From Clostridia bacterium (GTDB lineage: Bacteria > Bacillota > Clostridia > RGIG6154), in NCBI GenBank assembly GCA_017410375.1, contig JAFQQW010000059.1, positions 62,001-126,000 on the forward strand: DNA of 64,000 nucleotides. The letters are read 5' to 3'. Below, in pieces: positions 57,827 through 63,281 of this stretch. The notes beneath the pieces were generated by a model. It was not told the DNA's origin, made no database searches, and saw only the letters and a list, made by a program, of their open reading frames with translations. Positions within the stretch are counted from its first letter, which is position 1; the number at the start of each line of letters is the position of its first letter. A program made the position numbers and the translations under genes.

Positions 57827-59636
57827 TTTTGTTTCCTCCTTTAATGGGTCGGAACGGAATCAGACAATGCTTGTCAAACCCAATCAAATCTGTTCTGCCC
57901 GCCTTTATCAATGCTTTTTTTACAATTTCATAATTTTCGGGTCGTCTGTATTGCAAAAGCGCCCGTTGCATTTTCTTTTCTTCATAGGATTTGGGTACAT
58001 ACACCTTTTCCATGGTTCTCGGGTCAAGCCCCGTAAAGAACATACAAGTCGAAAGTGTACCGGGAGTGGGATAAAAATCCTGCACCTGCTCGGGTGTGTA
58101 CTTGATATCCCGTAAATACTCTGCCAGCTCAATGGCATCCGTAAGCTCTGAGCCGGGGTGACTTGACATTAAATACGGCACTACATACTGCTCTTTACCC
58201 AGCTGTTTATTGACTGCCCTGTACTTTTCACAGAAGGCATCAAACACCTTTCTGCCGGGCTTACCCATGTAGTAAAGCACCCTGTCCGACACATGCTCGG
58301 GCGCAACCTTTAACTGTCCCGACACATGGTTTTCACAAAGCTGATAGAAAAACGAATCATCTTTATCGTAAATCAGGTAATCGTACCGGATACCTGACCG
58401 AACAAACACTTTTTTCACCTTTGGAATGTCTGCAAGCTTTCGTAAAAGCTCTGCATATTCCTTGTGGTCCACCCGTAAATTTTCACATGGTACCGGGAAT
58501 AAGCATTGCCGTTTGGGACAATTCCCCTTTGTTCCCTGCTTTTCGCAGGACGGTGCTCTGAAATTCGCGGTTGGTCCGCCGACGTCATGGATATATCCTT
58601 TGAATTCAGGGTCCCAAACCATCTTTTCTGCCTCACGCAGAATAGATTGCTGACTGCGCGATGTGATAATTCTGCCCTGGTGAAAGGTCAGTGCGCAAAA
58701 AGAACAGTTGCCGTAACACCCTCTGGAAGAGGTTAAGCTGAACTTTACTTCCTTTATGGCAGGCACACCACCTGCTTCCTCGTACATGGGGTGATAGGTT
58801 CCCATATACGGCAAGCCGTACACCATGTCCATTTCTTTTCGGGAAAGGGGTTTGGCAGGCTTGTTCTGTACCAGATAATAATCCCCGTGGGGCTGAATCA
58901 CCGTGTTGCCCGTAAAGGGATCCTGATTCTGATACTGTATCATAAAGCTTTCGGCATATTTCCGTTTATCCTTGGAAACCTCGCTGAACGAGTGGCATGC
59001 AAAGCATTTTTCATGCGGAATGCTTTTGGTTAAATAGCAGGTGCCGGGAATGTCTGTAATTTCATGCACATCAGTACCCGAGGACAGTCGTTTTGCAATT
59101 TCGACCATCTGGGTTTCGCCCATACCGTATACCAGAAGGTCAGCACCCGAATCCACAAGCACCGAACGGCGCACCTTATCGTCCCAGTAATCGTAATGGG
59201 CAAATCGGCGGAGGGATGCTTCAATCCCGCCAATAACCACCGGCAAACCCGGGAACGCTTCCCTTGCCCGGTTGGCATATACAATTACCGCTCTGTCAGG
59301 GCGCTTGCCCGCCACACCGCCGGGGGTGTAGGCATCGTCACTTCTGCGTTTTTTAGAAGCGGTATAGTGGTTAACCATAGAGTCAATGTTTCCGCTTCCG
59401 ATGAACACGCCGTATTTCGGCACGCCCATCACTAAAAAATCCTCGGTAGAGCGCCAGCAAGGCTGTGCCACAATGCCCACCTTAAAGCCTGCATGCTCTA
59501 ACACTCTGCCGATAATAGCCGTACCAAAAGAAGAGTGATCCACATACGCATCACCCGTAACAAGCAGAAAATCCAGTTGTTCCCATCCCCTGTCCTCCAT
59601 ATCCTTACGGCAGACAGGTAAAAATGTATTTTTCAT
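57702..59636 (-). CDS. YgiQ-family radical SAM protein with a C-terminal extension over folD
   Basis: A 644-residue YgiQ-type protein: N-terminal B12-binding-like domain ([21 protein letters not shown]), [21 protein letters not shown], the radical SAM triad CYGNCSFC, and the family end KHCLIPFRP. About 43 extra residues, basic and Gly-rich ([27 protein letters not shown]), follow [13 protein letters not shown]; they are encoded by the folD ribosome site and the first 125 bases of folD. ATG 59636 follows GGAGG; a longer frame into the repeat at 59751 is rejected. The function of the family is not settled. Confidence 0.9.
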
Positions 59637-59750
59637 AATGCCTCCGAAATATTTTATGTCTGTTTTATCCTGACGGATATAATCAATTTTCAGACTTTTC
59701 CTTGAAGAAACGTTACCATGAATTGGCTTACACATTTCAGCAAATCCCCA

Positions 59751-60006
59751 TTGCGACACATAAGGTTTAGATGCAGTCTATTTTAAGGTATAAAGGCTGT
59801 ATAATTTAGATGCCTTTCCAAAGGCTTCTCCTTGAGGAGAGGCTCCGCCGTAGGCGGTGGTGAGGTGTAGATTGCGAAAGCAATCGTTATTTTTCCACCT
59901 CATCCGAGTTGCTTCGCAACCCACCTTCCCCTCAAGGGGAAGGCTTTTTTGAATTCGACTTTTTTCGACAATCTTTACAAATTCGTGTTAAGTTAGAACT
60001 AAAAAT
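59751..60006. repeat. Intergenic element 1: shared ends with a CACCT-word hairpin array
   Basis: The left motif (59751-59775, ending ACACATAAGGTTTAGATGCA) and right motif (59985-60005, GTTAAGTTAGAACTAAAAA) enclose hairpins GCCTTT/AAAGGC, TCTCC/GGAGA, CCGCC/GGCGG, GATTGC/GCAATC, GTTGC/GCAAC and CTTCCCC/GGGGAAG. Between them recur GGTGAGGTG and its complement-like CCACCTCATCC and CCCACCTTCC. The right motif ends one base from the stop codon of the gene at 60007. No gene is inside. Confidence 0.8.
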
Positions 60007-60768
60007 TCATTTTGATATAATATATACAGAGTTATTTTCCCACTTCACATCATATCCAAAAAATTCTGCAACCTTTCTAACTGGAATCATTGCCAATTCG
60101 TCAATAACCTGATATCCAACATCTATCGGAATAAAAGAATTATTTTCATATACACGATCATTATATATAACCAACGATTCATCTCCCTGTCTTAGAATAA
60201 CACGGTCACCACCCCAATTAACCTCTATTCCCAATGCCTCTCCTACAACTTTAGCAGGAACAAGTGTTCTGTCATTCGTAATAACAGGGCTGTTATAAAA
60301 TCTGATTTCTTCATCGTTCAAATACACTTTAGTATCATTTTTTGTTTTATATTTTAACACAATATCTTCTAAATTCCGGCATTCTTCTATTGAAAATTCA
60401 TAGGATTTATCTGGTGTTCTACACAAATATTTTTCTTTTGAGGATAAGTGAAAACTAATAACCATTTCACCATCAACATAAATATTCAACGATTCTCCAC
60501 CAGATGCAACCCATCCACCATTAAACGGAGTAAGATTCATGTTTGAAAGACCGTTAAGAATATCTTCTATCTCAGCAGAATCCGTGGTGACATATTTATA
60601 ATATCCAGCCATTAACGGATCAGAAAACTCTCCGCCATTATAATATGAAACCTTAATTTCATTACAGGATTCAATATCAACATTATAATATTCATAATTT
60701 TCTGCAAAAACCAATCGGATTGAAAAAACAACCGACAAACAGAGCATTAAACTAATAATCCTTTTCAT
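60007..60768 (-). CDS. Secreted protein with copper-amine-oxidase N-terminal-like domain
   Basis: A 253-residue AT-rich gene. Signal peptide: about residues 1-22 (SLMLCLSVVFSIRLVFAEN). A unique region (25-150) precedes a two-part copper-amine-oxidase-N/stalk domain: ITNDRTLVPAKVVGEALGIE at about 165-184 and DELAMIPVRKVAEFFGYDVKW near the end, which is the same module as in the 1584-residue protein at 30733. It has no catalytic domain. It stands between elements 1 and 2 and shares no spacing with neighbours, as a cassette would. Confidence 0.82.
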   Translation of the reverse strand: MKRIISLMLCLSVVFSIRLVFAENYEYYNVDIESCNEIKVSYYNGGEFSDPLMAGYYKYVTTDSAEIEDILNGLSNMNLTPFNGGWVASGGESLNIYVDGEMVISFHLSSKEKYLCRTPDKSYEFSIEECRNLEDIVLKYKTKNDTKVYLNDEEIRFYNSPVITNDRTLVPAKVVGEALGIEVNWGGDRVILRQGDESLVIYNDRVYENNSFIPIDVGYQVIDELAMIPVRKVAEFFGYDVKWENNSVYIISK

Positions 60769-60806
60769 TAAATCTCATCCTTTCGACAATATTCGACATA
60801 TCCATA

Positions 60807-60873
60807 TTTTGAGGCATAAGGTTTAGATGCAAACCTTTTTGGTGTCAAGTTTGTGTCGAGTTAGGAACAAAAA
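60807..60873. repeat. Intergenic element 2 (minimal, 67 bp)
   Basis: Left motif 60807-60831 (TTTTGAGG variant of the first bases, then CATAAGGTTTAGATGCA), right motif 60853-60873 (GTGTCGAGTTAGGAACAAAAA). The interior is 21 bases and includes AAGGTTT/AAACCTT (a hairpin with the left motif) and a partial repeat GTGTCAAGTT of the right motif. It ends one base from the stop of the gene at 60875 and starts 38 bases before the start of the gene at 60768. Confidence 0.82.
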
Positions 60874-60874
60874 A

Positions 60875-61330
60875 TTATTGATTTGAATTAAATTTATCTA
60901 TAATTCTATACCTAAAATAATTTGCTTGTCTTTCAGATGTTTTATCGTCTTGTTCGCCACCCAAAACCCATTGAAAATAATGTGATAATTCATGCACTAA
61001 TGAAGAAATAACTTGTTCATAAAGTTCTTCTCCATCATACTGTTGATATAATTCTGCATTTATTTTAGATGGAATACGAATATATGGCTCTTTATCTTCA
61101 AACCATCTGAAACTACCATATGCCCACTTACCATTTAGAAGTTTAACTTTTTCACAGTTTTTGATATAAACTGTTAGATGAACAGGAAAAACATATGTAT
61201 GCCTTAACCACTTTGCAAACATTTTATATTTTTGTTTTAAACTTTCATCTATACCTTTTTCATAACGAAATGAAATGCCATTATTGGAACATTTGGCTTT
61301 ATCTATTTCAAAGGTTTGCCACAAATTCAT
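60875..61330 (-). CDS. Small HExxH metallopeptidase-like protein
   Basis: A 151-residue AT-rich protein, not assignable to a named family. H113-E-L-S-H117 (SLVHELSHYFQWV) with E133 in TSERQANYF looks like a zincin site. No signal peptide. The N-terminal half has no obvious motif. It is bounded by elements 2 and 3. Proteins of this size and type are common as cargo in gene-cassette arrays and mobile islands; no function can be assigned beyond probable zinc binding. Confidence 0.72.
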   Translation of the reverse strand: MNLWQTFEIDKAKCSNNGISFRYEKGIDESLKQKYKMFAKWLRHTYVFPVHLTVYIKNCEKVKLLNGKWAYGSFRWFEDKEPYIRIPSKINAELYQQYDGEELYEQVISSLVHELSHYFQWVLGGEQDDKTSERQANYFRYRIIDKFNSNQ

Positions 61331-61376
61331 ATTCCCACCCCTCTTTCATATTTCGTCATTTTTCGACATATTTATA

Positions 61377-61445
61377 TTGCGATACATAAGGTTTAGATGC
61401 AAACCTTTTTGATATCTGTTCATATCAAATTATAACTAAAAACAT
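61377..61445. repeat. Intergenic element 3 (minimal, 66 bp)
   Basis: Left motif 61377-61401 (TTGCGATAC then ATAAGGTTTAGATGCA), right motif 61422-61442 (a degenerate ATATCAAATTATAACTAAAAA). The same AAGGTTT/AAACCTT hairpin as element 2 is present. It begins 46 bases from the start codon at 61330 and ends 19 bases from the GrpB stop at 61462. Confidence 0.78.
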
Positions 61446-61461
61446 ATAAATAAATTGGAAT

Positions 61462-61977
61462 TTATTTCAAACCGCATTCTTTATACAGTTCTTCAATGCA
61501 TGGTGATTTATACTCCATGTATCCGTCTATATCATTTAGAAATAGCTCGGCGGCTTTTTCTTTTATCAAACTGTATTTTCTAACCGCTTCGGGATTGCTT
61601 CGGAGAAAATCTCTGAATGCAATATGACGGTGCAATTCTTCCGAGTATTTCGGACATACATACAAGTGATGCATTTGCAGATGCTCTTTGCCTGAATACT
61701 TAAATGCCTCTCTATCCTTAATACCAAGATTACCCTCGTGGATATATCCGATTGCTTTCAAGCCGTCAACTAACGCAGCAAACACCGAGTAATCCCCAAT
61801 AATCACATCAATATCAATGCAAGGTTTAGCAGACATTCCTTCGACAGAGGTGCTTCCGACGTGTTCAACACCGATGATTAAATCGCCAATTGCTTCTTCA
61901 ATCTCACCCTTTATTTTTTCAAAAGCTGATTGCCATGCCGCATCGTATGGCAGTACAACAACCTTTCTTGTTCTCAT
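61462..61977 (-). CDS. GrpB-family nucleotidyltransferase-like protein
   Basis: A 171-residue GrpB/UPF0157 protein: VVVLPYDAAWQSAFEKIKGE at the start, VEHVGSTSVEGMSAKPCID with the nucleotidyltransferase GS and D-x-D (IDIDV), and HLYVCPKYSEELHRHIAFRDFL. ATG 61977 is used because AGGTGA lies 5 bases upstream; the longer frame begins inside the left motif of element 4. The family is frequent in mobile and cassette contexts; substrate unknown. Confidence 0.88.
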   Translation of the reverse strand: MRTRKVVVLPYDAAWQSAFEKIKGEIEEAIGDLIIGVEHVGSTSVEGMSAKPCIDIDVIIGDYSVFAALVDGLKAIGYIHEGNLGIKDREAFKYSGKEHLQMHHLYVCPKYSEELHRHIAFRDFLRSNPEAVRKYSLIKEKAAELFLNDIDGYMEYKSPCIEELYKECGLK

Positions 61978-62032
61978 ATAGTTCACCTGCAAATTCTTAT
62001 TTATCTGTTCGATATTTTTCGACATATCCATA

Positions 62033-62258
62033 TTGCGACACATAAGGTTTAGATGCAACTTGTTTTAGCTAAATTTTGCAACAAGTTGCAAAGCTAAATT
62101 ATTCCATCTTACTCCATAGCTAAATTACTCCTTTGGAGTAGCTAAATTAAATTCGCTTTAAGCGTGCAAAGCACATTTAGCTGCCGCAAGGCAATTTAGC
62201 TGAACTTGTTCAATTTAGCTCGCGATAGCGAATTTAGCTGCGTTGCTATGCAACGCAA
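62033..62258. repeat. Intergenic element 4: hairpin array with the word AGCTAAATT
   Basis: The left motif (62033-62057) is followed by four copies of AGCTAAATT (62067, 62092, 62118, 62140) and then four copies of its complement AATTTAGCT (about 62174, 62193, 62212, 62231). Short, mutually different hairpins fill the gaps: TTGCAAC/GTTGCAA, ACTCC/GGAGT, CGCTT/AAGCG with GTGC/GCAC, GCC/GGC, GAAC/GTTC, CGC/GCG, and GCGTTGC/GCAACGC. It ends at the next left motif (62259), so no gene and no right motif stand between. The word copies can pair across the centre into a branched stem. Confidence 0.88.
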
Positions 62259-62504
62259 TTGCGACACATAAGGTTTAGATGCAAACCAAGTTTAATGAAT
62301 TGACAACTGTTGTTGTCATGAATTGGCGTCCCACCATGAATTCTCGCTTTGCTCCATGAATTGAATCGCCTTTCATGCACTTTAGTGCAATTCATGAGCC
62401 GTCAGGCTCAATTCATGAAATCGTAAGATTTCAATTCATGCCGCAGGCAATTCATTGCGGTTGAGTATCAACCGCAATAATTCACATCAGGTCAGGAACA
62501 AAAA
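62259..62504. repeat. Intergenic element 5: hairpin array with the word ATGAATTG
   Basis: The left motif (62259-62283) is followed by ATGAATTG at 62295, 62318, 62336 and 62356. Then come CAATTCAT copies at 62388, 62409, 62432 and 62448 and a final AATTCA at 62479. Hairpins: GACAAC/GTTGTC, GCAC/GTGC, GAGCC/GGCTC, GAAATC/GATTTC, GCC/GGC, TGCGGTTGA/TCAACCGCA. Hairpins of the left half are more degenerate. The right motif (62483-62504) touches the stop codon of the gene at 62505. This array has the same architecture as element 4 but another word. Confidence 0.88.
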
Positions 62505-63281
62505 TTACAAATCAATTTCTGCACATATAGGATAGTGGTCGGAAAGGAAAATGCCGTTATGTTCATCTTCCCACAGGGTAACCGACCGCACTTTATCCTT
62601 CAATTCATCGGTCACGAAAATATAATCAATTTCATATTCCTGATCTACCGTACCGAAGTTGTGGAATGTTGCAGGATAAGGCCCTGTAATTTTGTTAAGC
62701 GGAAGTTCTTTTTGTTCTGCAAATTTTTTTACACACGCGGATTGTCCCCATTTTAAATTAAAATCACCCATTACAACGGCAGGAATATCATATTTATTTT
62801 GCTTATCCGCTTTCATTCTTTCAAGCATAAAGTTCAGCTCATCTTCCTGAGCCGAGCTTTCAATATGGTCAAGATGCACATTATACACATACATATTTTC
62901 ACCCGTGGGCTTATAACGAACAATCGCAGTGTTCAGCGTTCTGGGGCATTGGCTTTGGTTTTTATATCCGGTTTCAGGCACATAAGGCGTATCACTCATC
63001 CAGCACACATCCAGCCCGAGCAGCTCCACCGTTTCCTTACGAATGGCAGTAAATACACCTTCACCGCTAAAATCTTTCAGTCTGCCGTGTCCTAAAATCA
63101 AATACTCCGGAAGCACAACCTCCAAAAGCTCTTTCGTTTTCGGAATAACCTCCTGAAAAGCAATAATATCAGGCTTTTTTTCTGCAATAACATCATGCAC
63201 AAGCCCTGCACGGTGTATAAAGCTGTTTACACCATCCCATCCATCGTAGCAACTGCGAATATTAAAAGTTACAATTTTCAT
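62505..63281 (-). CDS. Endonuclease/exonuclease/phosphatase-family protein
   Basis: A 258-residue EEP-fold protein: N-terminal VTFNIRS, KPDIIAFQEV with the metal-binding glutamate, VYNVHLDH, VMGDFNLKWG, and C-terminal LSDHYPICAEID. Such proteins cleave phosphodiester or phosphomonoester bonds (sphingomyelinase, AP-endonuclease, inositol phosphatase types); the substrate is open. No signal peptide. GGGGGAG lies 6 bases before ATG 63281. There is no left motif upstream of it, so the array appears to end here. Confidence 0.88.
   Translation of the reverse strand: MKIVTFNIRSCYDGWDGVNSFIHRAGLVHDVIAEKKPDIIAFQEVIPKTKELLEVVLPEYLILGHGRLKDFSGEGVFTAIRKETVELLGLDVCWMSDTPYVPETGYKNQSQCPRTLNTAIVRYKPTGENMYVYNVHLDHIESSAQEDELNFMLERMKADKQNKYDIPAVVMGDFNLKWGQSACVKKFAEQKELPLNKITGPYPATFHNFGTVDQEYEIDYIFVTDELKDKVRSVTLWEDEHNGIFLSDHYPICAEIDL

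Follow-up and report, generated by a model that had tools for sequence, protein, structure and literature searches.

Systems related to the array

The closest described relatives of the array analysed here include the intervening sequences (IVSs) of 23S rRNA and the S23 proteins associated with them. In the IVS of Coxiella burnetii, GACAGAT heptamers stand directly ahead of the S23 start codon, and the S23p protein of Xanthomonas is a homopentameric ring (PMC4990558). Homology of the S23 family (PF05635) to Avd has been stated as well (PMC10053308). Avd, a relative of S23, is essential for diversity-generating retroelements, although no reverse transcriptase and no template or variable repeat came to notice beside the arrays. 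The arrays share with the Coxiella IVS an S23/IVP gene, words of ~7 nt at the S23 start codon and inverted termini able to form a stem. Unlike the IVS, they lie outside 23S rRNA, have distinct hairpins between the words and abundant solo copies, and place both word sets 5' of the S23 gene, whereas the IVS has them on both sides.

REP/BIME/REPIN and BOX elements are scattered intergenic palindromic modules in inverted arrangement, as are the arrays described here, which differ from them in a constant layout of four direct and four inverted words (4+4), a clade-specific word and linkage to S23. A short constant repeat with variable inserts recalls CRISPR, but here the inserts are covarying hairpins common to several species, the repeat measures 7–9 nt, every second half of the array carries it inverted and the copy number is fixed; on this anatomy, together with hairpin covariation, a CRISPR array was rejected. 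Integron cassettes resemble the surroundings of the locus in their tandem single-gene units, in the direct copies of a conserved site between them and in the hairpin-rich DNA nearby, but differ in that here no IntI scores above the cut-off, the site is unlike RYYYAAC/GTTRRRY and the genes run against the GTT-like strand.

Anatomy, folding and boundaries of the array

The window, a stretch of 64,000 nucleotides, corresponds to contig C59:62001-126000 of a 2.77-Mb genome. Within it, the array proper (62067–62239) has four exact direct copies of the word AGCTAAATT on the plus strand (62067–62075, 62092–62100, 62118–62126 and 62140–62148), followed by four exact copies of the inverted word ATTTAGCT, placed on the minus strand (62175–62182, 62194–62201, 62213–62220 and 62232–62239). 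Each gap holds a distinct insert, mostly a hairpin. On the direct side these are hairpin 1 (TTTGCAACAAGTTGCAAA, 62075–62092, with covarying pairs), an imperfect hairpin 2 (62101–62117, C.T mismatches on the plus and G.A on the minus strand) and hairpin 3 (ACTCCTTTGGAGT, 62127–62139). The centre (62149–62174) holds a TAAATTCGC-type segment, the complement of the last hairpin and word, and after it two hairpins (62154–62164 and 62164–62174). On the inverted side follow hairpins 6 (GCCGCAAGGC, 62183–62192), 7 (GAACTTGTTC, 62202–62211) and 8 (CGCGATAGCG, 62221–62230); these three and hairpin 3 also draw on the covariation alignment. Directly past the last word lies the context-dependent hairpin 0 (GCGTTGCTATGCAACGC, 62240–62256), at whose base the array ends.

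The four-plus-four arrangement of a constant word with varying inserts proposed in the first-pass annotation is therefore confirmed. Its further claim of a hairpin in every gap holds for the six gaps with clear hairpins (62075–62092, 62127–62139, 62164–62174, 62183–62192, 62202–62211 and 62221–62230) and for the additional one at the centre; the gap at 62101–62117 holds an imperfect one. The predicted fold energy is well below that of shuffled sequences (z about −3 to −4.6). When the folds suggested by that annotation were computed, its branched tree emerged with DNA energies as the unconstrained minimum-energy structure of both strands, including all four word helices, and with RNA energies it lay at most 0.1 kcal/mol from the minimum; RNAalifold predicted the outer word helix. 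The direct and inverted word sets can thus close a stem, as the inverted terminal repeats of an IVS do, and the layout is that of the proposed family, in which one 7–9 nt word stands in 4+4 copies and every gap is filled by an insert of its own.

The stretch 62059–62258 is bounded by two identical 26-bp direct repeats on the plus strand, TTGCGACACATAAGGTTTAGATGCAA (site1; 62033–62058 and 62259–62284), delimited from the sequence and an alignment of 210 site copies. The array proper has no ORF inside, and a 97% identical copy in contig C13 of the same genome retains both boundary sites, which agrees with the earlier description of an empty cassette; a 94% identical copy with both boundaries was found in another family. 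The window contains no S23 ORF, and at this copy there is neither a recognisable sigma-A-like promoter nor a called terminator. The copy is intergenic between cassette genes and not in a 23S rRNA gene. A second array, of type B with the word ATGAATTG and again four direct and four inverted copies, occupies 62295–62477 and closes with a hairpin at 62455–62477.

The cassette system and its 26-bp sites

The minus strand of 59751–62284 carries tandem single-gene cassettes with a 26-bp site between each, encoding a copper amine oxidase N-like protein, a zincin-like ORF without a Pfam match and GrpB. The same cassettes recur beside different neighbours, and the zincin-like cassette (60875–61330) recurs in another organism at 89% amino-acid identity (L149 5764–6213). 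The whole block is missing in G001, a genome of the same genus in which ygiQ is followed directly by a uxaC-like gene, the acyltransferase gene and wecB, with no site. The consensus of 210 distinct site copies aligned from clostridial loci, ATTGCGAcaCATAAGGTTTAGATGCAA, contains GTTTAGA and does not follow the RYYYAAC ... GTTRRRY pattern, and searches with the integron integrase profile (TIGR02249) gave hits above the cut-off in 0/24 site-bearing genomes, on which ground an integron was rejected. Two loci (L070 and L072) have other site flavours, AAGACTGTATAATTTAGATGCC and AATCAGTGAACGATTTAGATGCC, which share TTTAGATGC; four more (L074, L084, L106 and L152) have another gene-less insert between sites, CCTTTCAAAGGCTTCTCC...AAGGGGAAGGCTTTTT, built of a different multi-hairpin repeat. 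A phage or plasmid origin was likewise discarded, as the array had no match in the phage and PLSDB collections; the site core was present in only three viral contigs.

An array family across Clostridia

BLAST with the window array recovered homologues in 26/196 relatives and 33/391 class genomes, at about 70–98% identity, so the prospect raised in the first-pass annotation of an array with no counterparts elsewhere is clearly false. The material is mostly metagenome-assembled. A word-blind detector, which asks for a 7-mer with three or more occurrences per orientation inside 260 bp, called 59 arrays in the long loci and 0 after first-order shuffling (3.08 Mb); on this result and the homologues, chance or an isolated inverted duplication was rejected. 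The family uses the words AGCTAAATT, ATGAATTG, GCGATATA, TCGATAT, TGAAATA and GTGAAGTT, with further words before S23 genes, and across several of them the layout is almost always four direct plus four inverted. At least four type A arrays occur in the genome of the window. At L070 (8300–9100), type A and type B arrays stand in tandem, each closing with a hairpin and AATCAGTGAACGATTTAGATGCC. The region 59600–62600 matched nothing in Rfam at E≤1, and we found no earlier description of such arrays in the literature.

Across 29 aligned type A copies, compensatory two-sided changes affect 18 of 38 predicted pairs, nearly all of them in local hairpins. Part of this covariation is the swapping of entire hairpin modules: the GTGC..GCAC hairpin is central in some type A copies and further right in others. 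The outcome that the earlier annotation had set against its own reading, a fixed RNA family with covarying helices, was encountered in part: the hairpins do covary within the family, but the family is absent from Rfam. Pairing of the words across the centre, as drawn in its tree, fared worse as a constraint on the words and has no support from covariation in type A: of the 57 deviating word cells, a few of them misaligned, 2 retain Watson–Crick pairing and 9 wobble pairing, whereas the pair is lost in 46. Since the words rarely keep pairing when they deviate, their constancy must have a cause other than pairing with the opposite word. In non-type-A arrays, only some copies have the tree as their minimum-energy fold. 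We also rejected an RNA on one fixed strand, as GT and AC mismatches favour neither strand overall, in counts that rest on type A, types B and D being poorly segmented.

Linkage to S23 genes

The flanks of several type A copies run into a gene for an S23/23S-rRNA-intervening-sequence protein (PF05635, 99 bits). Nine of the ten S23 ORFs in the first-gathered loci adjoin a called array, and the tenth (L038) lies beside a partial array match, through which its locus had entered the set. Such complete copies begin with a sigma-A promoter and a hairpin, followed by the array and then the S23 gene, with type A arrays preceding S23 in L133, L020, L021, L227, L331, L314 and others; the S23/IVP ORF lacking at the window and a homologous array directly 5' of it are thus both present in relatives. 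PF05635 was detected in 77/245 class genomes searched, often in multiple copies. A repeated-inverted-word score of at least 6 was reached upstream of 19/60 S23 loci, which were partly drawn from array-bearing genomes, compared with 1/59 downstream and 1/60 in shuffles. The genome of the window has a sole S23 gene (L293, C48:12100-13486), which is interrupted in frame by a TGA and stands behind a type B array; no type A S23 gene was found there, despite its type A arrays.

The word also follows the S23 phylogeny. Among 30 rows with a called word, 9 words required 9 changes, the minimum possible being 8, on a tree of 75 proteins with word labels from simple motif counts and so few alignment columns that many forks remain open. 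The sister words GCGATAT and TCGATAT occupy sister S23 clades. This pattern indicates that array and gene evolve as one unit; because they are neighbours, recognition would not follow by itself, and the co-segregation may be co-inheritance alone. That all eight words shift jointly between clades, while the hairpins are free to vary, hints more strongly at recognition. In G138, a 636-bp array-plus-S23 unit stands in two contexts at 98% identity.

Sigma-A-like promoters precede 10 of about 19 S23-linked arrays (21 rows scored, two of them not real arrays) versus 3/35 solo arrays. Nearly all of the S23-linked ones have a 17-nt spacer and lie 7–22 nt ahead of the first word, as in TTGATT-17-TATAAT (L332/L289) and TTGAAT-17-TATAAT (L331), and the S23 start codon follows at most about 35 nt past the array end in complete copies. 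With a promoter before it, the array of complete copies probably forms the 5' leader of the mRNA for S23, whose sense strand is equivalent to the window's minus strand.

In other clades, most S23 genes lack a hairpin array. A repeat with a 7-nt period was detected within 200 nt of 14/34 array-less S23 genes, compared with at most 1/34 at other lags and 1/400 at random; where both sides could be called, the heptamers are direct upstream and largely inverted downstream, L276 being an example. Degenerate heptamer repeats often flank array-less S23 genes in loci L263-L352, as they do in the IVS of Coxiella; among these genes is one (L276/L341) that appears to lie inside 23S rRNA, judging by eye from the sequence upstream of L276. 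A structure predicted for S23, with a mean pLDDT of 94.6, matches 2rld, 2gsc and Avd 4dwl, the last at TM 0.79–0.87. Its fold as modelled therefore resembles the ring-forming Xcc0516 protein and the Avd of diversity-generating retroelements, the latter likeness resting on TM-score and PMC10053308, as the Avd matches have weak E-values.

Insertion contexts and mobility

The arrays abut other hairpins: 35/40 reach another hairpin's base or stop only a few bases away from it, compared with 2/40 in shuffles. The abutted hairpin varies with context: it can belong to a cassette site, lie close to a promoter or be a tRNA terminator. At L093, a tmRNA-like gene has a terminator at its 3' end, and a type A array follows this terminator directly. 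Occupancy varies too: among congeneric genomes, the tRNA-Lys terminator is followed by a type A array in G064 and by no array in G115, and in G202 a different array and a broken S23 gene lie beside tRNA-Lys in rearranged surroundings. Synteny from the left-flank gene was absent at this locus, and in an array-by-array screen for empty sites by flank BLAST, neighbouring arrays dominated the matches. As the same arrays stand beside tRNA and operon terminators and before S23 genes, they are not specific to the cassette system in which the first-pass annotation had placed them. A role as terminator or insulator of convergent genes was rejected, the contexts being mostly tandem and similar to the intergenic-gap background, and the window having no called terminator.

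The search for an enzyme that moves arrays or cassettes yielded none, with no integron integrase above the cut-off in the 24 site-bearing genomes and recombinases being inconsistent companions. L093 has a nearby 285-aa tyrosine recombinase flanked by ACATAATACAAATTATGT palindromes, and similar large serine recombinases lie a few kb from arrays or sites in two genera (L070 12575–14146; L085/L181 5940–7493). Both the tyrosine recombinase beside the type A array of L093 and the large serine recombinase near L070 and L085 were dismissed as mobility genes, neither being a consistent companion.

Interpretation and alternative explanations

We lean, with slightly better than even confidence, towards reading the window feature as a solo copy of an S23-linked word–hairpin element, whose words we infer to be bound by S23, serving autoregulation or packaging, with movement in trans. 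That complete arrays stand directly ahead of an S23 gene suggests that the protein reads the words. Each word would then be a single recognition unit, bound by one protomer of an S23 ring, and the hairpins would act as interchangeable structured spacers presenting the words. Without S23, the inverted half could pair with the direct half and so fold the leader into a closed tree; pairing between the word sets would compete with S23 binding. Such a model would account for constant words, variable but maintained hairpins, a fixed count and clade-specific words. Copies without S23 would spread to other hairpins, such as terminators and cassette sites, settling at their 3' base and remaining there as orphans. 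Most likely the window copy is one of these, a gene-less cassette that the local cassette system carries, because it has no S23 gene and no promoter, and its genome has no intact type A S23.

The array could also be a recombination element that acts as folded single-stranded DNA, much like the variable terminal part of an integron attC; a recombinase would then recognise its hairpins next to the 26-bp site during cassette movement. The array does lie between identical sites, as do its 97% copy in the same genome and its 94% copy in another family, the full tree is the DNA-parameter fold on both strands, and several loci have arrays between a site and a cassette gene. But many arrays are found without a site, next to terminators or ahead of S23 genes, the majority of gene cassettes come with sites and no array, and none of the 24 site-bearing genomes has an integron integrase above cut-off, which makes this account improbable. 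We give about as little credence to an RNA regulator, an operator or riboregulator placing downstream genes under S23 control, with solo copies as working leaders. The promoter before the array and the close S23 start codon in complete copies fit such a role, as does the position of the window array upstream of the GrpB cassette gene on the minus strand; against this, solo copies mostly lack promoters (3/35 have one, and the window copy none) and often follow strong terminators, the host genome has no intact S23 gene, and mismatches show no preference for single-strand RNA.

It is similarly unlikely that the array is a passive REP/BIME/MITE-like repeat, derived from an inverted duplication, dependent on an unrelated transposase and functionally unlinked to S23. 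Loop ends of the G..A kind are found in 54/120 cases in the right half versus 1/120 in the left, as an inverted duplication predicts, and the arrays are multi-copy and intergenic; yet the 4+4 count is fixed across unrelated words, position and orientation before S23 genes are conserved, and the word is associated with the S23 clade. The reading as a solo copy of an S23-linked element draws on the architecture, the hairpin covariation, the S23 linkage, the word–clade association, the abutting of hairpins, the variable locus occupancy and the promoter-like sequence of complete copies. Against it count the possible co-inheritance of neighbouring array and gene, the lack of a type A S23 gene in a genome with at least four type A arrays, whose sole S23 is of type B, the array-less S23 genes of most other clades and the missing promoter at the window copy.

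Implications for the S23 family

A broader proposal, which we advance tentatively and regard as somewhat doubtful, is a new class of protein–nucleic acid system in which S23 rings read clade-specific words of 7–9 nt, with interchangeable hairpins as the scaffold that displays a fixed number of them. If that class is real, the same S23 family would use plain tandem heptamers elsewhere, including in true rRNA IVSs, and solo arrays would be parasites or regulatory targets of S23. S23/IVP proteins are widespread, yet without known function in the literature consulted for this question. If the words are binding sites, they would explain the multi-copy hairpin arrays of gut clostridia that are absent from Rfam, and would provide the S23 family with a concrete, testable ligand in several natural word–protein pairs.
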